From Actomonas aquatica (GTDB lineage Bacteria > Verrucomicrobiota > Verrucomicrobiia > Opitutales > Opitutaceae), in contig NZ_CP139781.1 in assembly GCF_019679435.2 (NCBI RefSeq), forward strand, positions 1,798,001 to 1,862,000: a stretch of 64,000 bases of DNA, written 5' to 3'. The notes below the pieces were generated by a model. It was not told the DNA's origin. It was given only the letters and a program-made list of their open reading frames with translations, and did no database searches. Position 1 is the first letter of the stretch; every line of letters begins with the position of its first letter. The translations under genes were made by a program, and so were the position numbers. This document shows, in pieces, positions 6,502 through 21,994 of the stretch.

Positions 6502-7179
6502 TCAGGCGTCAGGCGAATTTTTGGTCGCTTCCGTGTGCCGCACATCCCGGCCCTTCGCGAGGTAGATCATTTCCTCGGCGATGTTGGAGGCGTGGTCGGC
6601 AATACGTTCGATCGATTTGGAGATGAACATGAGCTCCAAGGCCCGACTCGTCGTGGCCGGATTTTCGATCATGTAACTGGTGAGCTCCCGGTAAAGCTGG
6701 CGGTTGATGGCGTCGACTTCGGCATCGCGTTTGCAGACGGCGAGGGCCTTGGGCTCGTCTTCCTGCAGGAAGCAGTCGAGCGCATCGCGCAGCATCTCCA
6801 CTGCGATTCGCGCCATGCGCGGGATGTCCACGTAGGGCTTGATGGAGGGCTCGGCGGCGAGCTTGGCCACGCGACGGGCGATGCTGGTGGCTTCGTCCCC
6901 CACCCGCTCCAGATCGTGGCTGGCCTTCATGCCCACGATCACCAGACGCAGCTCGGTCGCGACCGGGGAACGCAGGCTCATGTAGCGCACGGCCTCCTCA
7001 TCGATCTTCACTTCCAAATCATCCAACTCGTCGTCGGCCGCGGTGACTTGGTCGGCCAGCGAGATGTTGCCCTCCACCAACGCGTCGACCGCCTGGCGCA
7101 CCTGGCGCACGGCAATCTCTCCCATCAACACGAGTTGGGAGCGGAAGGTTTCGAGTTCGGAATCAAAAAATCGTTTCAT
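6502..7179 (-). CDS. phoU: Phosphate signalling regulator PhoU
   Basis: 225 residues from ATG 7179 (MKRFFDSELETF); a TTG 21 bp further upstream is in frame but less likely. It has the two three-helix PhoU repeats. The second metal-binding signature appears in the repeat around SIERIADHASNIAEE and its counterpart as SHDLERVGDEATSIA. PhoU links the Pst transporter to the PhoR/PhoB system and dampens uptake when phosphate is plentiful. It is the last gene of the pst operon, after pstB, as in many bacteria. Confidence 0.95.
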   Translation of the reverse strand: MKRFFDSELETFRSQLVLMGEIAVRQVRQAVDALVEGNISLADQVTAADDELDDLEVKIDEEAVRYMSLRSPVATELRLVIVGMKASHDLERVGDEATSIARRVAKLAAEPSIKPYVDIPRMARIAVEMLRDALDCFLQEDEPKALAVCKRDAEVDAINRQLYRELTSYMIENPATTSRALELMFISKSIERIADHASNIAEEMIYLAKGRDVRHTEATKNSPDA

Positions 7180-7232
7180 ACAGGGGACGGCAGGCAGCAA
7201 GGAATTCGCAAGTCAGTGGAGACACAAGTCCA

Positions 7233-8087
<855 letters not shown>

Positions 8088-8105: not shown

Positions 8106-9173
8106 TTACCAGCGGTAGCGGGAACGCAAACGGTTGCGAAGAATAATCGAGGTGGTGGCGATGAGGGCGACGATCGCGAGGAAAACGAAGGCGGTGCCGT
8201 ATTGGACGCGCTCGGAATACTCGTTTTGCGGGATCTTGGAGCTGACGACGTAGATGTGATACGGCAGCGCCATCACGCCCTGGAAGAGGAAGTCCATGAC
8301 GTGCTCCACTTCCCACGGCAGCTTGTCGCGAATGACATACGCCGCGGTGAACATGATCGGCGCGGTCTCACCGGCGACGCGGGCGATACCGAGAATCGAC
8401 GAGGTCAAAATACCCGGCGTGGCATAAGGCAGCACGGCCTTGCGGATGGTCTGCCACTTGGTGGCACCGAGCGCGAGCGAGCCCTCGCGAAAGCCCTTGG
8501 GCACCGCTTTGAGCGACTCCTCGGAGGCCGTGATCACCACCGGCAACACCATGAAGGCGAGCGTGAACCAACCGGCCATGAGCGAGACGTTCCACCCGAA
8601 GAAGATCACAAACATACCGAAGCCGAAGAGGCCGAAGACGATCGAGGGCACACCTGCCAGATTCAAAATGGCGAGGCGGATCGCCCGCACCACCGGCCCC
8701 TGTTTGGCATATTCGTTGAGGTAAATCGCGCTGGCGACGCCGAGCACGAGCGCGATGGTCATGGAACCGATCACGAGCAGAATGGTGCCCACAATGTTGG
8801 GGAAAATACCGCCGGCGGAATAGACGTAGGTCTTGGGCTTCAGGTCGGGCGCGGTCGTGCCGCTGGCTTCGGCTTGGGCTTCGAGGCTGGCCCGGAAGTC
8901 GCGGTATTCGTCGTCGGCCAACTCGTATTTGTCTCCCTGATACTCGAAGACGTAGAGCGACTTCGGCGCCTCGGTCAGGAACGGCACGTTGATGAAGGGA
9001 AACTCCGCCTGAAAGACCGTGCGGGAGCCTTTGATAATGATGTCGCCGAAGACCACAGCACCGGCCAGCAGGATGACGTAAGTGGCGAGACGGAAGACCC
9101 AGCCCATGCCGACTTCGGCGCGACGCCGCGCGCTCGGACGAGAGGAAAAGATGTGTCGATGTTTATCGCTCAT
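8106..9173 (-). CDS. pstA: Phosphate ABC transporter permease PstA
   Basis: 355 residues with about six membrane segments. The permease loop [20 protein letters not shown] is the EAA motif that docks PstB. Between the first membrane helix (about 25-45) and the second (about 125) there is a hydrophilic stretch of some 75 residues, longer than in E. coli PstA. This parallels the even larger insertion in PstC encoded upstream. It lies 9 bp after pstC and should be co-translated. Confidence 0.95.
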
Positions 9174-9182
9174 GGGGAGTCC

Positions 9183-10778
9183 TCAGCCGATGGAGATACG
9201 GTAGCGCTGCACGATCTTCTGCGCGACGTAGTTGATGACGAGGGCGATGAAGAAGAGCAGCATACCCACCACAAAGAGCGCCCGGTAGTGGATGCCCCCC
9301 TGCACCACTTCACCCATCTCCTGGGCGATGATGCCGGTCATGGTGTGCACCGGCTGCGTAAAGGCCGCGAGGCCGGTGGAAAAATCAGGAATGGCGATAC
9401 GATTACCGGCGCACAGCAGCACGACCATCGTCTCACCAATCACGCGGCCGAAACCCAGCAGCACGGCCGAGATGATACCCGATAGCGCCGCCGGCAGGAT
9501 GATGCGCAGAATCGTCTGCAAGCGCGTGGCGCCGAGCGCGAACGACGCCTCTTTGAAAGCGCGCGGCACGTTCTGCAACGCGTCCTCCGCGAGGGTGAAA
9601 ATGGTCGGCACCGCGATGAGCGCGAGCAGCACGCCCGCGGTGAGCGCGTTGAGGCGTTCGGCCACCGGGAAGCCCGGCACCCACTCAAGCCAGGACCAGC
9701 CAGACATCACGCGCAGGGCCTCGCCCAACACTGCGATACCGAAGAAGCCGAGCACCACCGACGGGATGGCGGAGATGAACTCGATGCAGGGTTTGATGAA
9801 GCGTTGCTCCTTCCCGTTCGCGAGTTGGTTCACGTAGATGGCCGCACCAACGCCGAGCGGCACGGCGATGGCCAGCGCCACCATCGAGACCATCAGCGAT
9901 CCGGTGAAGAGCGGCAGCACGCCATACCAGTCCTGCCAAAAACTCGCAGTCAGCCAGTTGCTCCCGGTGAGGAAACTGGACACAGCCTTCGTGAACGGCA
10001 CCGGCTCCTGCCAGTCCCATGCCGCCATGGACGCTTCGATGCGCGAAAAGCCGTCACGGTATTGGCGCACCAGCTCCTTGAAGCGTTCGAACCGCGCCGC
10101 CAGTTCCGGCGTCGGCAGATCGGGATTCGGCGCCTCCAACACACCATCGAGGGCGGCGGCAAAGTCGGTATTGAGTTCGCGATAAACCGGCAGGAAATCG
10201 ATCAACACCTGCACCTCGGCACCAAAGTCGATCTCGTCGATCGTGACCTCGGCGGCCTCGGCGGTTTTGCCCTCGGCCAGCAACTGGCGTCGTTCTTCCT
10301 CACGGTCGGCATTGATGAGCGCGCGCGTTTTGACCGCCGTGGCGACGTCGCCGAGGTCCATCACGGCGCCGCGCAGCGGCTCGACCGTGTCGCCGAAATC
10401 GTAGGAATAATCGTCAAAGGGCATCAGCCGCCGATTGGCGTCGGCCAGCTCCATGCCTTCCACCTGCGTGTAGTGCTGAAACGCCTTGATGCGCAGGTCG
10501 AACAGGTAGCGAGTGAGCGCCGTGTGGTCCTCCTCCTGCTGGCGCATGAAGTCGACATACTCGAGTCCCGCTTTGCGGTAGAGCTCGAGGTTGGCGCGGT
10601 TCTGACCAAAGAAACCGGCGCCCTCGCGGAAGAGGAAGACCGTGATCAGCCCGAGCACCACGACGGCCACAAACGCGTTGCCACCGAAGAAGGCCTGAAT
10701 GCACTCGTCGAGCGTGAGCCCGAGGAAGCGGGTGCGGGTCTTGGTGATGGCGAATTTAGGACGGGTCGTGGTATCCAT
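9183..10778 (-). CDS. pstC: Phosphate ABC transporter permease PstC with large periplasmic insertion
   Basis: 531 residues, well over the ~320 of E. coli PstC. The first membrane segment is at about 35-52 (NAFVAVVVLGLITVFLF). Some 220 mostly polar, helix-prone residues follow before the conventional permease core begins near 285. The EAA loop reads EASFALGATRLQTILRIILP. The insertion is Glu/Asp/Arg-rich with no cysteine pairs and should face the periplasm. Together with PstA it forms the channel. A 123-bp gap with a stem-loop separates it from pstS upstream. Confidence 0.94.
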   Translation of the reverse strand: MDTTTRPKFAITKTRTRFLGLTLDECIQAFFGGNAFVAVVVLGLITVFLFREGAGFFGQNRANLELYRKAGLEYVDFMRQQEEDHTALTRYLFDLRIKAFQHYTQVEGMELADANRRLMPFDDYSYDFGDTVEPLRGAVMDLGDVATAVKTRALINADREEERRQLLAEGKTAEAAEVTIDEIDFGAEVQVLIDFLPVYRELNTDFAAALDGVLEAPNPDLPTPELAARFERFKELVRQYRDGFSRIEASMAAWDWQEPVPFTKAVSSFLTGSNWLTASFWQDWYGVLPLFTGSLMVSMVALAIAVPLGVGAAIYVNQLANGKEQRFIKPCIEFISAIPSVVLGFFGIAVLGEALRVMSGWSWLEWVPGFPVAERLNALTAGVLLALIAVPTIFTLAEDALQNVPRAFKEASFALGATRLQTILRIILPAALSGIISAVLLGFGRVIGETMVVLLCAGNRIAIPDFSTGLAAFTQPVHTMTGIIAQEMGEVVQGGIHYRALFVVGMLLFFIALVINYVAQKIVQRYRISIG

Positions 10779-10901: not shown

Positions 10902-11711
10902 TCAGTTGACCGGCACAAAGCCGATCTGGCCCACGATGGCCTGCCCCTCGGCGCTGAGGGTGAAGTCGACGAAGTTGGCCGCTTCGCCCTCCGGCTCACC
11001 GTTGGTGTAGTAAAAGGTCGGACGCGCGTAGGGATAGTCCTTGGACTGCACGGCTTCCTTGGACGGCTTGCTGCCCTCGATATCGACCACGGCGGTGCCG
11101 GGCGTGTCGGCGTAAGCCAGACCCACGTAACCGATGCCGTTGGGGTTACCCGCGACCTCGGACGCAATCTGCTCGTTGCCGGCCATCTTCTGGGACGACG
11201 GCGCATAATCGCGGCGCTTCATGGCGAGGTCCTTGAAATCCGAATACGTGCCCGAAGCGGTGTTGCGGGTGTAGATGGAGATCGGGCCCGGGTTGCCGCC
11301 CACGGCCGACCAATCGGTGATGTCACCGGTGAAGATACGCTCGACCTGACGCTTGGTGAGCGACTTCACGGGATTGTCGGCGTGCACCAGAATGGCGATG
11401 CCGTCGTAAGCGACGACGATGGGCTTGAGCGTCACGCCCTTGGCGCGGCCGGCCGACATCTCGGTCGGCTTGGCGCGACGGGAGGACATGCCGATGTTGG
11501 CGGTTTCGTCGATCACGGCGGCGATGCCGGTGGACGAACCTTCGGCGGCGATCTCAAAGGACACGCCGGGGTGCTTCGCGCGGTAGGTTTCGGCCAGCAT
11601 GGGCACGAGCTTCGCGCCGAGCGTATCGGAGCCCTTGATCACGAGCTTCTGGGCAAAGGTCGGGGCCGCGAGCACGGCACCGAGGGCGAGGAGAGAGAGG
11701 ACTTTTTTCAT
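10902..11711 (-). CDS. pstS: Phosphate-binding protein PstS (copy 1)
   Basis: 269 residues with a signal peptide (MKKVLSLLALGAVLAAPTFA). KGSDTLGAKL and AAEGSSTGIAAVI are phosphate-contacting loops of the PstS/PBP-like family, and SIYTRNTASGTYSDF supplies the second lobe. It captures orthophosphate in the periplasm for PstCAB. It is 35 bp downstream of the porin gene and should be co-transcribed with it from the Pho-box region near 13063. A close paralogue lies at 13267-14091. Confidence 0.95.
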   Translation of the reverse strand: MKKVLSLLALGAVLAAPTFAQKLVIKGSDTLGAKLVPMLAETYRAKHPGVSFEIAAEGSSTGIAAVIDETANIGMSSRRAKPTEMSAGRAKGVTLKPIVVAYDGIAILVHADNPVKSLTKRQVERIFTGDITDWSAVGGNPGPISIYTRNTASGTYSDFKDLAMKRRDYAPSSQKMAGNEQIASEVAGNPNGIGYVGLAYADTPGTAVVDIEGSKPSKEAVQSKDYPYARPTFYYTNGEPEGEAANFVDFTLSAEGQAIVGQIGFVPVN

Positions 11712-11746: not shown

Positions 11747-12997
11747 TTAGAAGTTAACTTGGAGCTGCGAGCGCACGCCGTCGGCGGACTCGTCGACGTT
11801 GCCGCGCTCGGCGGTGCCGTGCACGTAGCCGAACTGGAGTTTCAGGTCGGAGCCCACGATGTAGTAGTTAAAGCCGAGGTAATACTCGGTGAGGTTGTCA
11901 CCGGTGAGCGAAGCCGGCGCGGAACGCACGCCGTCGGACACCTTGATGCCGCGACCGTCGGAGTCGGTATAGCTGTAACGGCCCACGATTTCGAACTGCT
12001 CGGTGATGCCGTAGGAGCCCTGCACCCACACGCCCCACGGGGAGGCGTCGGTGGTGCCGGCGATGCCGTTGTCGATATCGGCGGAGAGGAACTCACCGGA
12101 AACTTTCCACGGGCCGCGCTCGGCGTTGGCGTAGAGGTTGAAGACGGTCAGGTCGCTGTCCTCGGTGGGGGTGCGGCCACCTTGGTCGGGCAACAGGCCC
12201 ACGGCGGCGCCGAGGCGGAAACTGCTCTCGGCATTCACGATCGAGTAACCGGCATCGGCCCAGTAAGCGAAGGTGTTGTTGCTGTCGCTACCGGCAGAGG
12301 ACGCGCCGCCCGGCCCCTCGGTGCGCTCGGGATTGGTGATGGCCGCGCCCCAGAAGAAACCGCCGGTCTTCTGCTTGCGGGCATTGGGCACGGCGTCGAA
12401 GAACACACCCGTGCGATAGGAACCGGCGCCGAGACGACGACCGTTGTTGCCCTCGACAAAGTAGCGGGTGGCACCGGAACGCTCGATGGCGTCGAGGCTG
12501 CCGGAGGAGGTCCACTCCTCCATGCCGAAGTTCACCTTGCGCACGCCCACATCGAGGTTGAAGGGCAGCTCACCACCGAGGTTGCCGGTGTATTCGATGA
12601 AGGCTTTGTCGAAGTTCTCGCCCGCGAAGTCGTAGACGAGGTTGGCAGACCAGTTGGCACCGACCGAGGCCTTGGCGCCAAAGTAGAGGCGGCGCAGGAA
12701 AATGTGACTGGTGTCGGCGACGTTGGCATCGGAACTGAGACCGGCGTATTGCGCCTGGATACGACCGCTGATCGCGAGCGAGTGGGTGGACTTGCCGCCG
12801 GAGACGGAGCTGATCACCGCCGCATGGGACTCGGCCGTCAGCTCGGCGCGAATGTCTTCGGCCTCCTGGTCGGTGAGAATGCCCTTGCGCACAAGGACAT
12901 TGAGCAGGGCCCCACTATCTTGGGCCACAGCGAAGGAGGCGAAACCGCCGAGGAAGGCGCCGAGGAGCGCGACGCGTCGTAACAGGGAGTTAGTCAT
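11747..12997 (-). CDS. Phosphate-selective porin (OprO/OprP-like)
   Basis: 416 residues with a signal peptide (cleavage near AVAQDSG). An N-terminal helical segment (LVRKGILTDQEAEDIRAEL) precedes alternating amphipathic strands, and the protein ends in F (LQVNF), the usual outer-membrane assembly signal. The segment VRKVNFGMEEWTSS is typical of the Porin_O_P family, which makes anion-selective, phosphate-inducible channels. As first gene of the porin-pstS-pstC-pstA-pstB-phoU unit it would let phosphate cross the outer membrane. Its own upstream DNA carries PhoB-like 7-mer repeats. Confidence 0.88.
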   Translation of the reverse strand: MTNSLLRRVALLGAFLGGFASFAVAQDSGALLNVLVRKGILTDQEAEDIRAELTAESHAAVISSVSGGKSTHSLAISGRIQAQYAGLSSDANVADTSHIFLRRLYFGAKASVGANWSANLVYDFAGENFDKAFIEYTGNLGGELPFNLDVGVRKVNFGMEEWTSSGSLDAIERSGATRYFVEGNNGRRLGAGSYRTGVFFDAVPNARKQKTGGFFWGAAITNPERTEGPGGASSAGSDSNNTFAYWADAGYSIVNAESSFRLGAAVGLLPDQGGRTPTEDSDLTVFNLYANAERGPWKVSGEFLSADIDNGIAGTTDASPWGVWVQGSYGITEQFEIVGRYSYTDSDGRGIKVSDGVRSAPASLTGDNLTEYYLGFNYYIVGSDLKLQFGYVHGTAERGNVDESADGVRSQLQVNF

Positions 12998-13062
12998 GGA
13001 TGTCGAAGGGAAACGTTGCGGTGAGGGTTACGCTGCAACAGCGGACGACATTGCCTGAGTAT

Positions 13063-13091
13063 TGTTACGGTTTCGTGACGGTCGTGTTACG
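13063..13091 (-). promoter_or_regulatory. Candidate Pho box upstream of porin-pst operon
   Basis: On the minus strand, three 7-mers CGTAACA, CGTCACG and CGTAACA stand exactly 11 bp apart (4-bp spacers), 66 bp before the porin start. The E. coli Pho box is a pair of 7-mers containing TGTCA with the same 11-bp period. Related units occur nearby: CTGTCACG at 13112-13119, CGTAACA at 13135-13141 and TGTAACA at 13154-13160, plus an inverted pair TGTGACG/CGTCACA at 13177-13194. PhoB control is inferred from period and position. Confidence 0.65.
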
Positions 13092-13193
13092 TAGCAGGAA
13101 CTTCATGCTTTCTGTCACGTTTTTGCCGCCCTTCCGTAACACTTACGCACGTCTGTAACAAATGCGCCCGCGGCACTGTGACGTGGTCGTCAC

Positions 13194-13226
13194 AAAAAAG
13201 GCCGCCCCGCATTACGGGACGGCCTT
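13194..13226 (-). terminator. Intrinsic terminator of second pstS
   Basis: A GC-rich 11-12-bp stem (AAGGCCGTCCCG/GCGGGGCGGCCTT on the minus strand, slightly imperfect) followed by a T6 run. It lies about 40 bp past the stop of the second pstS gene and before the porin promoter region, so the two transcription units are separated. Confidence 0.85.
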
Positions 13227-13266: not shown

Positions 13267-14091
13267 TTATTGGCCCACCGGCACGAAGCCGACCTGCGCA
13301 GCGATGCGTTGACCCTCTTCACTCAGGGTGAAGGCGATGAACTCGGCCACGATGCCGGTCGGCTCACCATTGGTGTAATAGAACGTCGGACGGGCGTAGG
13401 GATACTCGCCGGAGTTGACGGACTCCGCCTCAGGCAGGTGTCCGTCGATCGTGGCGACCTTCACGCCTGGGGCCTGCGAATAGGCCAGACCGACGTAGCC
13501 GATGCCGTTCGGGTTGCCGGCGACCTCGGACGCGATCTGTTCGTTGCCAGCCATTTTCTGGGAGGAAGGAGCGTAGTCGCGCTTGCGCATGGCGAGCGCC
13601 TTGAAATCGGAATACGTGCCCGAGGACGTGTTGCGGGTGTAGACCGAAATCTCCCCCGGATTGCCGCCCACCGCGGCCCAGTCGGTCACGGCACCGGTGA
13701 AGATCTGCTCCACCTGGCGCTTGCGCAGGTCGCTGATCGGGCTGTCGGCATTCAAGATCACCGCGAGGCCGTCGAAGGCCACAACGTGCTCAGTCATCTC
13801 CACGCCCTTGGCGGAAGCGGCGGACATCTCGGTCGGCTTGGCCGAGCGGCTCGACATGCCGATATCGGCCGTGCCGTCGATCACCGCGGCGATGCCGGTG
13901 GAGGAACCTTCGGCGGCGATTTCGAAAGAGACCCCGGGGTGACGGGCTTTAAATTCCTCAGCGAGAATCGGGACCAACTTGGCACCGAGCGTATCGGAAC
14001 CCTTGATCACAATCTTCTGCGCCGAGACCGACGTCACCGCCGCCACGGTGGCCAACATGCAACCCAACAGGAAACGAAGAGGAGTTTTCAT
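13267..14091 (-). CDS. pstS: Phosphate-binding protein PstS (copy 2)
   Basis: 274 residues from ATG 14091 (MKTPLRFLLGCML, a signal peptide ending near VSAQ). The frame is open for 49 more codons upstream, but those cover the Pho-box repeats and lack a signal sequence. It shares most residues with the first PstS, including KGSDTLGAKLVP, AAEGSSTGIAAVID and the run APSSQKMAGNEQIASEV. Differences cluster in the segment around residues 105-125. It has its own Pho-box region and terminator, so it forms a monocistronic unit and may differ in affinity or expression timing. Confidence 0.93.
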   Translation of the reverse strand: MKTPLRFLLGCMLATVAAVTSVSAQKIVIKGSDTLGAKLVPILAEEFKARHPGVSFEIAAEGSSTGIAAVIDGTADIGMSSRSAKPTEMSAASAKGVEMTEHVVAFDGLAVILNADSPISDLRKRQVEQIFTGAVTDWAAVGGNPGEISVYTRNTSSGTYSDFKALAMRKRDYAPSSQKMAGNEQIASEVAGNPNGIGYVGLAYSQAPGVKVATIDGHLPEAESVNSGEYPYARPTFYYTNGEPTGIVAEFIAFTLSEEGQRIAAQVGFVPVGQ

Positions 14092-14136
14092 CGCGACCAG
14101 CGTGAGCGTGGCGGGAAGGGCCGCTCCAGCGTATTC

Positions 14137-14165
14137 GGTGACAGCCGCGTAACGTTTGCGTGACG
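14137..14165 (-). promoter_or_regulatory. Candidate Pho box upstream of second pstS
   Basis: On the minus strand, CGTCACG, CGTTACG and TGTCACC are spaced by exactly 11 bp. They begin 46 bp before the pstS start codon. A further CGTGACA (plus strand 14178-14184) lies beyond. The arrangement matches the repeats before the porin gene. Confidence 0.65.
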
Positions 14166-14223: not shown

Positions 14224-14253
14224 AAAAAAGCGGGCCACCGTAGTGGCCCGCTT
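14224..14253 (-). terminator. Intrinsic terminator after the beta-helix protein gene
   Basis: On the minus strand AAGCGGGCCACTACGGTGGC begins a perfect hairpin (stem AAGCGGGCCAC paired with GTGGCCCGCTT, loop of about 8 bases), followed by T6. It starts 30 bp past the stop codon at 14283 and ends the TonB receptor-secreted protein unit. Confidence 0.9.
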
Positions 14254-14282: not shown

Positions 14283-16106
14283 TTAGTCGAGCTCGTAGAC
14301 CTCGACGATCGCGATGCCGGTGGCATCGTTGACGCCGGAGACGACGACCGTGTAAGCGCCCGGGGCGAGCGTCGCGAGCATCGCGGCGTCACCGGTGGCG
14401 TTGAGCGGGAAGCCACCAAGCTCAGCGCTGTAAGCGATGGTCTGGGTGCGGACAACCGTGGTGCTGTCGAGCGGAGTGTTCTCACCGGCGCGGTAGAGGG
14501 TCAGCTGCGCGGCGGACAGGGTGCCGGACAGACCGAAATCAGCGGCGAGGGTCGGGCCCGCCACGCGGATAAGCAGCGACTGGACCTGGGAACCGTTCAC
14601 CACGAAACCAGCGGTGAGGGCGGAGTTGCCGGTGCCCACGAAACCGCGGGTGGAGATGTTGACCGGCTTGGAGGTGGAGTTGCGCACGACCGGGGTGGTG
14701 ACGGTGACGTCGCCAGCCGGATCTTCACCGTTCTCATCGACGAAGACGCCGCGGGAGGAAACGTAGCCAGCGAGGGCGAGGTTGGTCCAACCCTGGATCC
14801 AGAGGTTGTTGCCGAAGGCGCCGACGTAGTCGGTCACTTCCGCACCAGCGGCGCTGGCGTCGAACACGGTGGTGGTCCAGATCGGGGAGTTGTCCTTGTC
14901 GGCGGAACGCGGATCGAGGAGCTGGGCGAGCGGAGCGCGGGAGACGCCGAGCATCATCGGGTCGGCGATCATGTTGTTGAGCGTCGCGTCGGTGAAGTAG
15001 CTGGTGGCGTCGAGGTCGTCCGAGCTACCCGAGGTGCCCCAAGCGGTGGTGGTGTTGGAGTCGGCGTCGTGGCTGAACCAGACGTTGCTCTTGATCTCCG
15101 GCATGACGTCGCCGATGTCCTTCTCGATCTCGATGCCGGCCTTGAAGTCGACGAACACGGAGTTCACGAGGTGCACGGTGGCGTTGTCACGCGGGTTGAT
15201 CGGGGCGGCGGCGCTGGAATCGCCGATGCCGATGGCGGTGAGGTTGGACACCCACACGTTGCCCTTGGGGGTGCCGGCGATCGAAGAGGTTTCGCCATCC
15301 CACTCGATGGCCTTGTCGCCGTAGGGCTCTTCGTTGGTCTTCACCTGGACAGTGAAGAGGTATTGCAGGGTGCCGCGGAAGCCGGTGTCGAAGTCGAAGG
15401 AGTCGTCACCGCAGAAGGCCGCCACGAGGTGGTCAGGGGAGACGGTGCCACCGAAGAACTCGAAACCGTCGTCGTAGTTGGCGAACACTTCGATGTAGGA
15501 GAGGGTCGTGCCGGAACCGACACCACCGCCGGTGAGACCGTTAATCTCGTTACCAGCACCGAGGTCGGCACCACCGTGGCGGATGGAGACGTAGGTCATC
15601 ACGCCGGAGCTGTCTTCGTCATTGGTGCCACCGAAGGTGATGAGCGGGATTTGGTCGGCGGTGACCGAAAGACCTTCGATCTGGTCGCTGACCGGAGCTT
15701 CGGCGGTCTCGCCATCGGCGCGAGAGTTGATCGTAGCGTTGCCGAGCAAGATCACGCCGCCCCAGAGACCCTTACGGTCCGGACCGAGCGAGCCGTCGAG
15801 GGGATCGAGTTCGGAGGTGAAGACGATGGGGGCCTCGGCGGTGCCTTCGGCCATGATTTTGGAATCCTTCGTGATGATAAGGGCAGCCGCGCCAGCGCCG
15901 GAGCTGACTTCGCCCTTGATGACGGTGCCGGGGTCGATGGTCAGGACCGCTTCGTTGGTCACGAAGACGTAGCCGCTGAGCTTGTATTCATTGTCAGCCG
16001 TCCAGTGGGTGTCGGCGGTGATCGAGCCGCTCACGTTCACAGTCGCGGCGTGCAACGAGGCCGCAGCGCTGAGAAGCGCCACGGAAACCAGGGATTTCAG
16101 TTTCAT
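14283..16106 (-). CDS. Secreted beta-helix-like protein with C-terminal repeat module
   Basis: 607 residues from ATG 16106 (MKLKSLVSVALLSAAASLHA, signal peptide). Residues ~25-440 contain regularly spaced Gly/Asp-rich segments such as VLTIDPGTVIKGE, GLWGGVILLGNATI, SYIEVFANYDDGFEFFGG and DDSFDFDTGFRG, suggesting a right-handed parallel beta-helix. Residues ~475-607 form a module (GFVVNG, LLIRVAGPTLA, ending VEVYELD) that also ends two other secreted proteins in this window. The gene starts 57 bp after the TonB receptor gene and is certainly co-expressed with it. Surface capture of a phosphate-containing substrate is plausible from context only. Confidence 0.7.
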   Translation of the reverse strand: MKLKSLVSVALLSAAASLHAATVNVSGSITADTHWTADNEYKLSGYVFVTNEAVLTIDPGTVIKGEVSSGAGAAALIITKDSKIMAEGTAEAPIVFTSELDPLDGSLGPDRKGLWGGVILLGNATINSRADGETAEAPVSDQIEGLSVTADQIPLITFGGTNDEDSSGVMTYVSIRHGGADLGAGNEINGLTGGGVGSGTTLSYIEVFANYDDGFEFFGGTVSPDHLVAAFCGDDSFDFDTGFRGTLQYLFTVQVKTNEEPYGDKAIEWDGETSSIAGTPKGNVWVSNLTAIGIGDSSAAAPINPRDNATVHLVNSVFVDFKAGIEIEKDIGDVMPEIKSNVWFSHDADSNTTTAWGTSGSSDDLDATSYFTDATLNNMIADPMMLGVSRAPLAQLLDPRSADKDNSPIWTTTVFDASAAGAEVTDYVGAFGNNLWIQGWTNLALAGYVSSRGVFVDENGEDPAGDVTVTTPVVRNSTSKPVNISTRGFVGTGNSALTAGFVVNGSQVQSLLIRVAGPTLAADFGLSGTLSAAQLTLYRAGENTPLDSTTVVRTQTIAYSAELGGFPLNATGDAAMLATLAPGAYTVVVSGVNDATGIAIVEVYELD

Positions 16107-16162
16107 GCTGTATTTCTTGGGTTGTGGTGTGTGGAACACAGAGAGGGATGGGAAAGCCCGGC

Positions 16163-19060
16163 TCACTCGAAGAGGTAGCTGAGCGAAAGGGAGAAGCTGC
16201 GACCGGATTGGTAGCGGCTGTAGATGAGGTCACGGTCGGGTAGCCCGATCAGTTTCTCCTTGTCGGAATCGAGGAGATTCTTGGCGCTGAGTTTGAGCTT
16301 CCAGCGGGTGCCGAGGCGTTGGCTCAGCACAAAATTGAGGTCCGGGGCCGGCTGTTCGTAGACGTCCGGCATCGGGCCAAACACGACCAGATCGAGACGC
16401 TCGCCCACGACGTTGTAGGACAGCGTCGCGGAGGTGCCGGACTCCTCGCGGGAGTAATTGATGTCGGCGTTAAACACGTAAGGCGACTGGCCGAGCAGCT
16501 CGCGCTTGTCGGCGGCGTTGGGGTCGTAGGCGCGCAGGATGGACATCTCCGCCTCCGGGATCGTCACCTCGGATTCGATGAAGGTGAGGTTACCGCCCAG
16601 CGACCAGCGGCGGAAAGCTTCGCCGAGGAAGGACAGGTCACGACGGAACTCGAACTCGATGCCATAGACCGTGCCCTTCTCCACATTCTGCGGTTGGATC
16701 GAACCCACCGCCGGCTGGTAAAGCACCTCGATCGGCTGGCTCATGTCCTTGTAGAAGGCGCTCACCGCGACGGTCTCGCCCTTGCCCGGGAACCACTCCC
16801 AACGCAGGTCAAAATTATCGATGACGGTGAGTTCGAGGTCGGCGTTGCCGAGGTAAACGTCGCCGGTGAACACGTCGGCGTAACGGATGTCGGAGAGTTC
16901 CTTGTAGGTCGGACGCGCGATGGTGCGGCCGTAGGCGGCGCGCCAGTTCATGCGTTTGGTCTGCGCCCACACGAAATTGATCGCGGGGAGGAAATTGTCG
17001 TCATCGACGATGCCGGTCTTCGGCGTCAGGCCCGGCACCTCCACCGGCGTGGTCACGATCTCGGTGCTCTCGTAACGCGCGCCGAAGACGCTGCGCCAGC
17101 GCTCGCTGATCTGGTAATCGAGCATCGCATACACCGCGCTGATGTCTTGTTCGCCGATGTATTTGTTGGGCTCCTGCTGACGCGAAATCGTGTTGCCGAA
17201 GGTCACGCCATTGGCGTCGCGGTCGATGATGCCGACTGCCCCCGGGAACGCTTCGACGGCGTCGCGGGTGCGGGCGGAGCGAAAGTATTGGAAGCGCTGT
17301 TCGTCGTAATCGCGCTCGTTGCTCGAGGCCATGCCACCGAACTTGAGGCGCGACTCGTAACCGCCGAAGTGCAACGGCACGGTGATGTCGATGCCGCCTT
17401 CGGTCGCCTCCTCAGTGAGCTCGCGGAAGTAACGGTCGGGCTGCACGCCGGTGGCGTTGACCGGATTGCCGTCGAGGTCGTAGAGGGCGTTGAGGGTGCG
17501 GTAGTCGGGCTGGTCCTGCGTGCTCTCGGACTGCGAGAGGCGCCACTCAATCTCGGTTTCGCCGAGGCCCATGAAGAGGCTCTTGCCCTGCAACTGCGCC
17601 GAGGCGACGGAGCGCTCGGTCCGGAGCAGATCGTAGATTTCGTAGATCGCGCCGCCGTAGTTGAAGACCTCCTCGCCGACACCGCGCTTGACGGTGTCAT
17701 CCACGCTCTCGTTGTAGACCAAATCGAGGCTGACCTCGTGATCGATCGTCGGGCGCACCGCCAGCTTGATGAGGCCACCCTGGGCATCCGAAATCGTGCT
17801 CGAGGTCACGCCAAACTGGGGCGTTCCCGCCGGCGCGAGGGTCGGATCGAAGGAGAGCAGATCCGCGTCGGAAGTGAGCAGATAACGCAGCACGACGTTG
17901 TCGGGCGTGCCGGTGAAGCGGCCGATCACGCCGTCGTCGTAATGGCTGTAGGAGCGGCTCTTGTTGAAGCTGCCGGTGATGCCGAAGAGGCCTTGGTCAC
18001 CGAACTCGAAGCTGTTACCGGCGGCTACGCTGAGGCTCGTCGTCGGCTGACCGCGACGCTCGTAGGGATAAAACGGAGTAGTGAAAAGCTTCGTCGCCGC
18101 ATCGAGCTGCTCGGCCGGCTCAAAGTTGCCAAACAAGTCGGCTTGAATCTCGGCAGAAACGCGATTCGGGAAGGTTTCCGGCAAGCCATCCGGCACCCGG
18201 CCCATGTTGCCCTGCGAGGCGAGAATCTGCTCGTCGTAAACGTTGCTATTGCCGCCCGAGGCGATGGAAGCGGTGAAGAAGAAATGGTCGGGGAACGACT
18301 TGGTCTTCAGGTTGACGCTACCGCCGGAAAACGCCCCCGGTTGATCGGGCGTGAACGACTTGGTGGTGACGACGCTTTCGATGATGTCGGTCGGAAACTG
18401 GTCCATCTGCACCGCACGTTTGTCGGGGTCGGCGCTGGGCACCGAGACGCCGTTCATGAGGGTGTTGGAGTAACGGTCACCGAGACCGCGGATGAGCACG
18501 TATTTGCCGTCCACGACGGACGCGCCGGTCACCTTGCTGAGCGCTTCGGCGGCATCGCCGGCCCCAAGGCGGGAAAACTGATCGCTGCCGATGGCGTCGC
18601 TGATGGTGGCCGCCTTCTGGCGCGCCACGAGCAGACCGATATCGGAGGATTGCACCACGTCGGCGGAGACGGTGAACGCCTCCATCTTCACCACGTCGCT
18701 GCCCATCGCCGCCAACGGAATGTCGAGACGCAGGGTTTCGCCCGCACTGATGCTCAGGTCCGTGATGTTGGCCGCTTGGTAACCCTCTTTGATGACCGAC
18801 AGCGTGTAGGTGCCCACCGGCAGATCGGAGAGCACGTAAGCACCCGCGAGATCGGTGGTGGCAACAGCGCCGGTTTCGACGACGGTCACCTCGGTCCAGG
18901 ACACCCCGAACCCGGTGCCTTCGTCGATCACTCGACCGGACACAGCACCAGTCGCGCCCGATTGGGCATGCGCGGCGGCAACCAAGACCAGCGCCCCGGC
19001 GAGGGCGGCGAAAGAACGAAGGATGTATCGGGCGCCCAAACGACGCGGGATGCGTGACAT
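16163..19060 (-). CDS. TonB-dependent outer-membrane receptor
   Basis: 965 residues. A signal peptide (cleavage near AAHAQ) is followed by a carboxypeptidase-regulatory-like domain (~38-120, GAVSGRVIDEGTGFGVSWTE). The plug (~150-260) contains GDAAEALSKVTGASVVDGKY and LIRGLGDRYSNTLMNGV. A 22-strand barrel continues to the terminal SLSLSYLFE. Domain layout resembles SusC-like and TonB receptors of Bacteroidota and Opitutales. It is followed directly by the secreted beta-helix-like protein and flanked by pst genes; PhoB-like repeats precede it. The substrate is unknown, but an organic phosphate compound would fit. Confidence 0.9.
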   Translation of the reverse strand: MSRIPRRLGARYILRSFAALAGALVLVAAAHAQSGATGAVSGRVIDEGTGFGVSWTEVTVVETGAVATTDLAGAYVLSDLPVGTYTLSVIKEGYQAANITDLSISAGETLRLDIPLAAMGSDVVKMEAFTVSADVVQSSDIGLLVARQKAATISDAIGSDQFSRLGAGDAAEALSKVTGASVVDGKYVLIRGLGDRYSNTLMNGVSVPSADPDKRAVQMDQFPTDIIESVVTTKSFTPDQPGAFSGGSVNLKTKSFPDHFFFTASIASGGNSNVYDEQILASQGNMGRVPDGLPETFPNRVSAEIQADLFGNFEPAEQLDAATKLFTTPFYPYERRGQPTTSLSVAAGNSFEFGDQGLFGITGSFNKSRSYSHYDDGVIGRFTGTPDNVVLRYLLTSDADLLSFDPTLAPAGTPQFGVTSSTISDAQGGLIKLAVRPTIDHEVSLDLVYNESVDDTVKRGVGEEVFNYGGAIYEIYDLLRTERSVASAQLQGKSLFMGLGETEIEWRLSQSESTQDQPDYRTLNALYDLDGNPVNATGVQPDRYFRELTEEATEGGIDITVPLHFGGYESRLKFGGMASSNERDYDEQRFQYFRSARTRDAVEAFPGAVGIIDRDANGVTFGNTISRQQEPNKYIGEQDISAVYAMLDYQISERWRSVFGARYESTEIVTTPVEVPGLTPKTGIVDDDNFLPAINFVWAQTKRMNWRAAYGRTIARPTYKELSDIRYADVFTGDVYLGNADLELTVIDNFDLRWEWFPGKGETVAVSAFYKDMSQPIEVLYQPAVGSIQPQNVEKGTVYGIEFEFRRDLSFLGEAFRRWSLGGNLTFIESEVTIPEAEMSILRAYDPNAADKRELLGQSPYVFNADINYSREESGTSATLSYNVVGERLDLVVFGPMPDVYEQPAPDLNFVLSQRLGTRWKLKLSAKNLLDSDKEKLIGLPDRDLIYSRYQSGRSFSLSLSYLFE

Positions 19061-19153
19061 GCGACCGACACCGCCATGAGGCGAGCCTCCTACTCAAACC
19101 GAATGAAAGGCCGCCACCAACATGTTACCCGGCCGACAAGTCGCCGTAACCTA

Positions 19154-19171
19154 CGTGACGCTCACGTGACA
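19154..19171 (-). promoter_or_regulatory. Candidate Pho box upstream of TonB receptor
   Basis: Plus-strand 7-mers CGTGACG (19154-19160) and CGTGACA (19165-19171) have the 11-bp period seen before the porin and second pstS genes; CGTAACC at 19145-19151 is a further near match but at a 9-bp offset. They lie about 95-110 bp before the receptor start. Two in-phase units make this the weakest of the three sites, but the same 7-mers in three places of one locus are unlikely to be chance. Confidence 0.5.
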
Positions 19172-19192
19172 GCGTCACGCAATTGTGGCCAA

Positions 19193-21916
19193 TCAGTTAC
19201 CGTTGTCGGCGTTCTCGCTGTCCTTCTCGGTCGCTGCCTGCGTGAGGGTCACCAGGTCCTGCAATGAGGTGAAGTGCTGGCTCAGGTCGAAGTCGCCCCC
19301 TAGTCCACCCACGATGCGGTCGAAGAGCTCCTTCTTGGAATCCTTCAGGTCCTGGATGCGTTCCTCGATCGTGCCGGCCGTGACCATGCGATACACAAAA
19401 ACGGTGTTGGTCTGGCCGATGCGATGCACCCGATCGACCGCCTGCGCCTCCACCGCGGGGTTCCACCACGGGTCGAGCAGGAACACATAATCGGCCGCGT
19501 GCAGCGTGATACCGGTGCCAGCCGCCTTGAGCGAGACCAACATGGCCGCCGCGCCTTCGCCTCCCTGAAAGTCCTGCACGGGCTTTTGGCGGTCGAGGGT
19601 CATGCCGGTGAGTTCATACTGCGGCAAATCCGGGTAATGGAGCGCCAACGCCTCCTTCACGCGGTCGAGCAGCATGACAAACTGCGAAAAAATCACGACC
19701 TTGTGACCGCTCTCGATGATCTCGGCCAACTTGTCGACCAGCAGCCCGATCTTGCCCGAGTCCTCCAGCGGCGATTTGCGCCACGGCAACATGTCCGGGT
19801 CGCAACACACCTGGCGCAGGCGCGTGAGCAGCGCGAGGAAGCCGAACGACTTCTCCCGCATCGCCTCGCCCACGTCGTCGCCGAGCCGCTGCAGGCCTTC
19901 GGAACAGATACGGGCGTATTCGGCCCGCTGCACGTCGCTCATCGGGCAGTGCAGGTCCATCTCCACCTTCGGCGGCAGCTCCTTGGCCACTTCACTCTTG
20001 GTGCGACGCAGGATGAACGGCGCCAGCTGCGCCCGCAGGCGCTCCAACGTGCCGACACGGTCGACATTGAGCTGAGATTCGAAACTGGAGCGCGAACCGA
20101 GCAGCCCCGGCAGCAGGAAGCGGAAGATCGACCACAGATCCAGCTGGCGGTTTTCCAGCGGCGTTCCCGTCAGGACGACGCGGTGTTGCGCGCGCACGGC
20201 GAAGGTCGTTTGCGTGACCTTGGCGTCGGGGTTCTTGATGAACTGCCCCTCGTCGAGCACCGCGTAACCAAACTCCACCTTGGGCAGGAGCTCGCGGTGT
20301 TTGCGCAGCTGCGTGTAGCTGGCCAACCAGATGATCGGCGCCGTGTTTTCCACGAAGTCGTTGCCCGTTTTGAGCACGTTGGTGGTCAACTCCGGGAAGA
20401 AGCGCTCGATCTCCTCGCGCCACACCGGCACGACCGAGGCCGGGCAGACGATGAGGTGCGGCTTCGCGGTGATCGGACGGGCCTTGAGCAGCGAGATGAC
20501 CTGCAGCGTTTTGCCCAGACCCATCTCGTCGGCCAGCAGACCGTGGCACCCCACATCGGCGAGGTGATGCAGCCACTCGACCCCGCGCCGCTGGTAGGGA
20601 CGCAGCAACTCCGGCAACGCCGCGTCCACCGGCTGAGGCTTCAGCACACCCTCGCGCCATTCCTCCAACTCCGGCGTGACCGTGAGTTTGAAGCGCGAGT
20701 CGTTGAACAGGGAAAACACCAGATACGGCGACAGTGCGTCGGCCATATGCGTGTCGGAGACATTTTTGCGCCAGGCCTCGATCGCCTGCAGCTGCTCCGT
20801 CGGCAGCTCCACGATGCCCACGCTGGGCAAAATCACCGGCGAGGTCCCGCGCCGCAGCAGCGAGCGCACTTCCTGATCGGTCAGCAACTGCTCACCGGCC
20901 TTGAAGATCCAGCGCAAGTCGAGCGCCGGGGCGGCCGAATCGCGCCCCCCTGCCCCGTTTTCGCCCCCCGCGACATCCTTGCGACCAGCGACCGCCTCGA
21001 TCTGGATCGTCTTGGTGCCTTGGATCAGGTTGGCCGCGTTGTTATCGAGCTCGATGTTGAAGAGACGGCGCCAGGAGCTGAGCGTGCCCTTCAGGAAATT
21101 GGGGATCTCCATGACGTTCTCGAGCAGGTAGACCCCACTCTCGCTGTCATATTGGAAGTGCGCCTTGCGCGCGTAGGCCGCCAGACCGATCAACTTGGCG
21201 CGCTCGCCGGACGTGACATGCGCCTGCCCGTCGGCGTGGGCCGCGGTCCCCAGCGCCTGAGTCCGCTCTTTGTCTTTGGTCTGCCAAAAGGCGCGGAAGC
21301 TGAGCCCGCCGACTTTGGTTTTAAAGACCAGCACCAGGGTGCGCGACGAAACCCGCGCCCCCGAGGCACCGCCGATGCGATGAGAGGAGGTCTTTTGCGT
21401 GGCCGACCAAGGCGAACGCGTGGTGCGAGCCGCCCCGCCACTGGCGGCGGCCATGCCCCGCCCAAATGTCGCCGTGCCGTGCCCGTTGCTGCGACCGTTG
21501 CCGTTGGAGGAACCGTTGCTGTGACCATTGGAACTGACCGCCACCGCTTCGGGCTCCGGCTCGGGTTCTTCGGTCGGCAGGGGCGAAATCTCATCGGCCA
21601 CCAACTCTTCGATCTCGTGCAGGCCCGCCACCGCCAGCGCCCGCGCGTTATCCAAATCCGTCGAGGACGAGCGCACCGAGAGTTTGCCGTTGGCCCACTC
21701 GATGACCGCGTATTCGTCCTTCTTGTCCACCCGCCGGTGCACGATCGCATCGTGATCGGTCAACTCCAGTTCACGCACCTCACCCTCTCGATAAAGGCGA
21801 TGACCATCTTCCAACTGCGGCGTTGAAAAATGGGGCTCCCACTCGTCGGCGAGCTTTTCGAACCAAAATTCCAGGGACTGCGGGGTGTAGACGCGCTTGG
21901 GACCGTGCGATTGCAT
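19193..21916 (-). CDS. SNF2-family ATP-dependent helicase
   Basis: 907 residues from ATG 21916 ([12 protein letters not shown]); an upstream start at 21970 would add 18 hydrophobic residues of low plausibility. The first ~115 residues are conserved-looking. A Gly/Ser/Asn-rich linker (~125-180) follows, then a beta-rich region. The SNF2 ATPase holds [12 protein letters not shown] (Walker A), [14 protein letters not shown] (DEGQ in place of DEGH) and LTGTPLENR. The C-terminal helicase domain ends with [18 protein letters not shown]. Such bacterial proteins act on DNA-bound complexes such as stalled RNA polymerase. It is a single gene with no obvious partners. Confidence 0.92.
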
Positions 21917-21994
21917 CCAGAGAAAAAGGAAAACCGTAGGGGGGAGCCCCCCCCCGGCAACGTAAATCACCTAAATCGTGCAAATAGCTCTCAT

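Follow-up and report, generated by a model that had tools for sequence, protein, structure and literature searches.

The closest described relatives of the system treated here come from Caulobacter and others, in which cc0170 (coding for the lipoprotein ElpS), the TonB receptor gene cc0171 and type II secretion (gsp) genes follow one another in that order, and the pair co-occurs in genomes (PMC2996285). The cited sections of that 2010 report describe ElpS as being made under phosphate starvation, and its overproduction as accompanied by more secreted alkaline phosphatase activity (PMC2996285). In Flavobacterium the proteins FI, FII and FIII and three TonB-dependent transporters (TBDTs) are induced by phosphate depletion; in F. 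johnsoniae FI (Fjoh_3856) lies beside the TBDT Fjoh_3857 (PUSIII) and FII in the phoBR cluster (PUSIV). The part of that paper cited here links FI-FIII to the Caulobacter lipoprotein at 31-36% identity and 50-54% coverage, likens the Flavobacterium exoprotein to a polygalacturonase and says that plant-associated Bacteroidetes lack PstSABC (PMC8115612). For a Verrucomicrobiaceae strain Pst and eight TonB receptors have been described, the two not being connected in the cited part of that account (PMC12872454), and in the openly available literature we found no paper on a beta-helix/TonB-receptor pair in Verrucomicrobiota, one search returning mostly chance word matches. Here we describe such a pair from Actomonas aquatica, located in a stretch of 64,000 nt (NZ_CP139781.1:1,798,001-1,862,000, forward strand, GCF_019679435.2; hereafter the window) of a 6.1 Mb genome on a single contig. 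It consists of a TonB-dependent receptor and a secreted right-handed beta-helix protein, encoded next to a pst phosphate transport cluster. We consider it fairly probable that the two form a Pho-regulated module of the ElpS/TonB-receptor kind for energised import of a phosphorus compound, because Pho-box-like sites are present, linkage to pst, phoB and PitA genes recurs in relatives, and starvation data exist for related pairs in the cited sections (PMC2996285, PMC8115612).

Pho-box-like repeats and the pst setting

On the minus strand the order is TonB receptor, beta-helix protein, hairpin, pstS1, hairpin, OprP-like porin, pstS2, pstC, pstA, pstB and phoU. A preliminary description of this DNA had recognised the receptor and the exported beta-helix protein as a two-gene unit, which is borne out by the open reading frames (ORFs), the Plug and barrel domains and the beta-helix model, and had placed the unit between pst genes. 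The same-strand pst cluster does adjoin, but the pair is a unit of its own at the upstream edge of the cluster, with a SNF2-helicase-like ORF (19193-21970, named by reading of the ORF and not by domain scan) on its far side. The OprP-like porin of the locus had gone unmentioned when a TonB route was first proposed.

Five triple repeats scoring at least 15.5 at period 11 were found in the 64 kb, all of them upstream of the receptor, pstS1 or porin gene, versus 0 or 1 for each of the other periods from 7 to 16; the repeat unit was composed after inspecting these sites, and the scan tests only period and places. A matrix was trained on the boxes of pstS1, the porin and a distant place (L203), with the region upstream of the receptor left out of training. 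Run with two units over both strands of the window, it ranks the receptor sites 6th and 7th, behind the training sites and one more site upstream of the porin; with three units the best receptor site ranks 7th. The Pho-like repeats that had been read upstream of the receptor are thereby recovered by a matrix not trained on them. The name Pho box is taken from the E. coli consensus. Across 129 upstream regions of beta-helix and receptor genes, triple repeats of at least 15.0 are present in 19 at period 11 and in 0-5 at other periods (one contig, listed as L047 and L106, is counted twice here and among the 140 loci discussed below).

A genome-wide search for the triple-repeat pattern with at most 2 mismatches yielded 19 matches, compared with 9 for the reversed control. 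Besides three Pho-box-like places at the pst locus there are 13 others, of which six were inspected, and three of these six precede TonB receptor genes by 40-90 bases. The receptor is followed by PhoD in one case (L204:2349-6852), by a PhoD-like phosphatase and a GntP permease in the second (L206:6862-12531) and by a phytase in the third (L208:2225-6219). About 0.02 such box-receptor coincidences would be expected (hand estimate, based on the 63 plug matches in the host genome), and a plug match does not directly follow any of the seven uninspected places. Citromicrobium is likewise reported, in the cited part of the paper, to have a TonB receptor next to a phytase gene (PMC3400609). The best array outside the pst locus (L203:7805-8298, 0 mismatches) stands just upstream of a small lipoprotein-like ORF with no Pfam match.

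Coordinates of all features are collected in Table 1. The hairpin at 14228-14253 is weak when taken alone, the whole scan having returned 5 terminator-like sites versus 6.3 in shuffled sequences, and a sigma-70 scan gave 0 sites versus 1.0 in shuffles.

Table 1. Features of the receptor/beta-helix pair and the adjoining pst cluster (positions in the window; aa, amino acids).
Feature	Position	Strand	Basis
TonB-dependent receptor, 965 aa: signal peptide, CarboxypepD_reg, plug, beta-barrel	16163..19060	-	ORF, Pfam, structure model
Secreted right-handed beta-helix protein, 607 aa from ATG 16106 (open frame reaches 16166)	14283..16106	-	ORF, model, fold
C-terminal domain of beta-helix protein, about 130 aa	14286..14678	-	recurrence in genome; Foldseek pre-peptidase C-terminal-like beta-sandwich, E 5e-4
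Pho-box-like 11-bp repeats, upstream of receptor	19112..19194	.	repeat scan, matrix
Pho-box-like triple repeat, upstream of pstS1	14133..14165	-	repeat scan, matrix; genome-wide pattern, 1 mismatch
Pho-box-like repeats, upstream of porin	13059..13198	.	repeat scan, matrix; genome-wide pattern, 0 mismatches at 13064-13091
Terminator-like hairpin and T-run, 3' of beta-helix gene	14228..14253	-	11 pairs, 8 G-C
PstS1, phosphate-binding protein	13267..14091 (open frame to 14238; likely ATG 14091)	-	TIGR02136, 232 bits
Terminator-like hairpin, 3' of pstS1	13198..13226	-	13 pairs, 9 G-C
OprP/OprO-like porin	11747..12997	-	Pfam Porin_O_P, E 7e-24
PstS2	10902..11711	-	TIGR02136, 230 bits
PstC permease	9183..10778	-	BPD_transp_1; TIGR02138 above cut-off
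PstA permease	8106..9173	-	BPD_transp_1; weaker TIGR02138 match; PstA by position
PstB ATPase	7233..8087	-	ABC_tran; PstB by position
PhoU	6502..7200	-	Pfam, E 1e-44

The receptor and its beta-helix partner

The receptor matches the Pfam Plug and TonB-receptor barrel above cut-off and carries a CarboxypepD_reg domain in addition. Its structure model (predicted local distance difference test score, pLDDT, 84) is closest to FecA, FhuA, HasR and BtuB1 of the BtuB1-BtuG1 complex, with Z of 34.6-38.2 (FecA: Z 38.2, root-mean-square deviation 3.3, 598 aligned). Judged from the model, these matches place the receptor in the general TonB-receptor class and name no cargo. That siderophore, haem, copper and B12 receptors supply the nearest solved barrels by Z, and that an acidic helix face suits metal binding, would agree with import of a calcium, iron or zinc complex for metallophosphatases, the receptor being Pho-regulated without carrying phosphorus. 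The closeness to such barrels says little, however, because most solved TonB receptors are of the siderophore, haem, copper or B12 types, and the pairs recur beside pst and PHO4 genes. In Flavobacterium, moreover, the phosphate-responsive TBDTs are induced by phosphate depletion only and other TBDTs by iron depletion, according to the cited part of that study (PMC8115612). We regard a metal cargo as improbable.

The partner is likelier to start at ATG 16106 (MKLKSLVS...), which is signal-peptide-like by eye, than at 16166, and its residues are numbered from the former. It has a Sec-type signal without cysteine (MKLKSLVSVALLSAAASLHA has none) and hence lacks the mark of a lipoprotein anchor. 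A lipobox-like cysteine was seen by eye in 10 of 10 proteobacterial and bacteroidotal comparison proteins; the Latescibacterota, Zixibacteria and Gemmatimonadota proteins are without one, and the start of the Acanthopleuribacter protein is uncertain. Pfam gave no match at 0.1 and hence no catalytic family, NCBIfam a single meaningless match at 0.14, and a sequence search of the PDB none at E 1. The AlphaFold2 model (mean pLDDT 84, predicted TM-score 0.74) is a right-handed beta-helix, with best matches at Z of about 20-22, mostly across about 270-300 residues. Foldseek alone gave no strong match for the helix part, the beta-helix class coming from VIA, and neither the model nor Pfam indicates the helical (TPR-type) fold of SusD.

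The invariant residues of the partner are for the most part glycines and acidic residues, and phosphate-binding loops, for which the preliminary description had proposed to look, were not recognised. Among 42 Verrucomicrobiota rows the acidic residues E144, D165, E187, D213, E216, D234, D240 and E268 are invariant; in a cross-phylum set to which 14 proteins of other phyla were added, E187, D212, D213, E216, D234, D235 and D238 are kept in 15 of 15 rows, with exceptions at positions 144, 240, 268 and 270. From the alignments, the conserved acidic residues may form a metal site or an active site. These residues would fit the main rival explanation, according to which the helix is a secreted enzyme, a lyase or hydrolase that depends on metal and cleaves polymers rich in phosphorus, the receptor importing the fragments without binding the enzyme. 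The best fold matches of the helix include tailspikes, NosD, alginate epimerases, the pectate lyase Pel9A, PL6 lyases and polygalacturonases, and other Pho-box-preceded receptors are paired with enzymes. Yet beta-helix folds are used by binders and enzymes alike, and no enzyme family stands out by Z (18.7 against 1bhe and 21.3 against Pel9A, 1ru4, among many others, by fold comparison alone). Further points against an enzyme are the missing catalytic Pfam family and the cited ElpS sections, which report the rise of alkaline phosphatase on overproduction and not an activity of ElpS (PMC2996285). On balance, we consider a polymer-cutting enzyme unlikely.

The C-terminal domain of the partner occurs in about 70-80 copies in the host genome, sometimes in tandem, and a copy closes the protein in 7 of 7 other host-genome loci inspected (L002-L008). 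The copy in the window has no Pfam match. Only 4 of 59 sampled genomes of the phylum contain the domain, with 35-72 matches each; it may serve in secretion or anchoring. In L045, L048, L069, L070, L125 and L182 a single chain contains the beta-helix domain two or three times.

Conservation of the pair and its linkage to phosphate genes

The beta-helix core was matched in 76 of 387 genomes of the phylum. After leaving out 17 with weak matches inside other, mostly very large, frames, 59 genomes were used for the PstC count and 60 stretches from 57 genomes for the neighbourhoods. The receptor gene adjoins the helix gene or lies one gene apart in 58 of the 60 Verrucomicrobiota loci (ORF heuristic), and the two loci without receptor (L060, L067) both stop at contig ends. 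Two gene orders exist, either receptor-helix or helix, a gene of ~418 aa and receptor. The best 80 of 596 beta-helix matches in named genomes span Bacteroidota, Rhodothermales, Ignavibacteria, Latescibacterota, Zixibacteria, Gemmatimonadales, Acanthopleuribacter, Verrucomicrobiota and others, and 61 of these 80 loci contain a receptor; a Marinobacter plasmid carries the beta-helix protein with no receptor beside it. A profile built from 42 helix sequences of Verrucomicrobiota, that of the window among them, scores 246 and 256 bits against the type II secretion-linked proteins of Sphingomonas and Indioceanicola and 292-453 bits against six from Bacteroidota.

In 9 of the 59 Verrucomicrobiota genomes, belonging to six genera, PstC is encoded no more than 15 kb away from the helix, where about 0.6-0.9 such genomes would be expected (hand estimate); two more have it within 40 kb, and two of the 59 have no PstC match at 1e-30. 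Pst genes are found in 15 of 140 loci. This number excludes the weak case L102 as well as L040, L091 and L149, which have a PstB match only (first count 18); PstB of L040 and L091 is 21% and 30% identical to that of the window, and L040 sat in the profile-building cluster. In three of the Pst loci (L111, L113, L124) PstS is the sole Pst gene, and L099 is a very close relative of the window's genus. On the beta-helix tree (FastTree) the pst label is somewhat clustered, with 12 changes versus 15.4 in shuffles, and at least 10 changes are forced by starred branches. Linkage to pst is a minority state of the pair, yet repeated and independent. The link that the preliminary description proposed to look for in other Verrucomicrobiota does recur, but across the wide range of the pair most copies have no pst genes next to them. 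PHO4 (PitA-type) transporters are present in 8 of the 140 loci and PhoB matches of at least 180 bits in 23, the latter being general OmpR-type regulators that weigh little. An Alteromonas plasmid carries in a row phoB, phoR, a phosphate-binding protein, a 2OG oxygenase, helix, receptor and TonB motor; a Latescibacterota locus has receptor, helix and then Pst permeases; and L147 comprises TonB motor, receptor, helix, a gene with an MGDG-synthase domain, PstS, two Pst permeases, PstB and PhoB-type regulators. Pseudoalteromonas L181 differs: its helix, receptor and motor genes have siderophore genes and others as neighbours, and no phosphate gene is annotated there.

A pair for uptake of carbohydrates or other compounds might also have come to lie beside pst by accident, as its position as a separate unit at the cluster edge and the minority of linked cases would allow. 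The recurrent pst/phoB/PHO4 linkage, the upstream boxes and the starvation data on related pairs speak against this, and we hold such an accident to be very improbable. The neighbours were sampled separately: from 342 eligible genes (180-1000 aa, outside the module, 60 Verrucomicrobiota loci) 100 were drawn at random and 4 cut by locus ends were dropped. Among the 109 families found in the remaining 96 neighbours, the 25 commonest include none for carbohydrates, rarer ones being possible, and the carbohydrate surroundings that the preliminary description had named as the opposite outcome were thus not seen.

Genes of a TonB motor are frequent around the pair, the 60 Verrucomicrobiota loci containing an ExbB-type gene in 39, DUF3450 and TonB in 28 each, a TPR gene in 25 and ExbD in 23. 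Motor genes at so many loci point to transport. They argue against an accessory or signalling role, in which the beta-helix protein would raise surface phosphatase activity and the receptor would sense and not transport, an account we think hardly probable even though the higher secreted alkaline phosphatase activity on ElpS overproduction (PMC2996285, in the sections cited) is in its favour. Type II secretion genes were not found beside the window pair; at another place the genome encodes a GspD-like secretin that scores under the family cut-off.

Two further proteins accompany the pair in part of the Verrucomicrobiota loci. The ~418-aa protein between helix and receptor genes (21 of 60 loci: L049-L053, L055-L057, L061, L064, L068, L076-L079, L086, L087, L093, L094, L096, L097) has weak TPR-like matches only. 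A ~258-aa protein with a PEP-CTERM-like tail is encoded 3' of the helix gene in 11 of 60 (L058, L059, L072, L073, L080, L081, L084, L085, L088, L089, L092), the one scanned falling just under the Pfam cut-off.

Phosphorus import and comparison with known systems

Several observations weigh against energised phosphorus import by the pair. No TonB motor stands beside it in the window, one DUF3450 gene being present elsewhere in the host genome, and 50 of the 59 Verrucomicrobiota genomes, many of them fragmented assemblies, have no PstC within 15 kb of the helix. The receptor's own box is a perfect two-unit repeat with a poor third unit and is absent from the genome-wide triple-repeat matches, and the boxes of the L204, L206 and L208 receptors are reversed relative to their genes, the unit being nearly palindromic. 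No receptor was seen in 19 of the best 80 of 596 named-genome loci, several of which are cut by contig ends. Four of them, L110, L118, L131 and L134, all from Bacteroidota, have at least 6 kb on both sides, no receptor, and PHO4 and/or a small porin; because these are not cut by contig ends, the beta-helix protein may act without this receptor. In the cited sections on Caulobacter, deletion of cc0171 left ElpS production going, cc0171 was expressed alike in rich and poor media, and no change in cell phosphate was seen on the shift (PMC2996285). A transport or binding test of related pairs is absent from the cited sections (PMC2996285, PMC8115612).

Weighing these points, we still favour phosphorus import, for which we infer regulation by PhoB, surface location, a two-protein complex, cargo, transport direction and the role of the helix as binder or enzyme. 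At low phosphate PhoB would bind the 11-bp repeats, and receptor and beta-helix protein would be made together with the porin and Pst. The beta-helix protein would be exported by Sec, end at the cell surface and work with the receptor by capturing a phosphorus compound. An organic phosphate or a phosphodiester is the likeliest candidate, and divalent metal ions on the acidic face of the protein may help to hold it. TonB energy would then drive import of this compound through the receptor, periplasmic phosphatases would release phosphate and the two PstS proteins would hand it to PstCAB, the OprP-like porin offering a parallel route for free phosphate. The earlier proposal was energised import of a larger phosphorus compound, with polyphosphate or organic phosphorus as candidate cargo. 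Boxes, linkage and published starvation data uphold that part of it in which an exported protein assists an energised, Pho-linked route across the outer membrane. Its premise that phosphate uptake in Proteobacteria relies on porins alone does not hold, as the PhoB regulon of Caulobacter is reported to include various TonB receptors in the cited part of that work (PMC11208175).

A wider interpretation is possible but doubtful, and its parts are proposed jointly. The pair might be a dedicated phosphorus importer of wide occurrence, energised by TonB and in many cases equipped with a TonB2-type motor of its own, serving as a second entry beside the OprP porin in Proteobacteria, Bacteroidota, Verrucomicrobiota, Latescibacterota, Zixibacteria, Gemmatimonadota and Acidobacteriota; the helix might capture phosphate compounds through divalent metals on a conserved acidic ladder; and the host genome might hold at least four Pho-boxed TonB-receptor units, the window pair being one of them. 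The three others (with PhoD, PhoD-like phosphatase and phytase) would be parallel test cases within one genome. If phosphorus import by the pair is correct, Verrucomicrobiota would have, besides a porin, a TonB-driven entry for phosphorus that involves a surface partner. What the ElpS-like family does, its cargo being unproven in the cited sections, would then become directly testable.

Like ElpS and Cc0171, the window has an exported protein beside a TonB receptor tied to phosphate, through starvation in the case of ElpS, and in the Sphingomonas (L179) and Indioceanicola (L180) replicons homologues of the window helix precede the TonB receptor and type II secretion (gsp) genes just as cc0170 does. 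Kinship of ElpS and FI to the window helix is suggested by gene order and related proteins. Unlike the lipoprotein ElpS, the window protein carries a cysteine-free Sec-type signal and ends in a beta-sandwich domain, and unlike cc0170/cc0171 with their type II secretion genes, the pair lies at pst with the receptor first. The pst setting and the boxes upstream of pair, porin and PstS make the phosphate link plainer than in Caulobacter with its secretion genes. The Flavobacterium proteins FI and FII resemble the partner as exoproteins beside a TBDT or phoBR, induced there by phosphate depletion, but they are lipoproteins in organisms described in the cited part as lacking PstSABC, whereas in the window Pst is present and adjacent (PMC8115612). 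Many relatives of the pair carry DUF3450, a long ExbB, ExbB, ExbD, TonB and a TPR gene, as in the TonB2 system of Vibrio vulnificus with TtpB2 (DUF3450), TtpC2 and TtpD2, which according to the cited part serves iron uptake (PMC6957404); such motor genes are not beside the window pair. With SusCD and PusCD, the latter phosphate-induced in Flavobacterium (PMC8115612, in the part cited), the pair shares a TonB receptor with a surface partner, but this partner is a beta-helix protein and not SusD, and the likeness is one of working only. The window pair is a Verrucomicrobiota member of the already known ElpS/TonB-receptor kind; particular to it are its pst setting, a partner without lipoprotein anchor and a C-terminal domain that is rare in the phylum (4/59).

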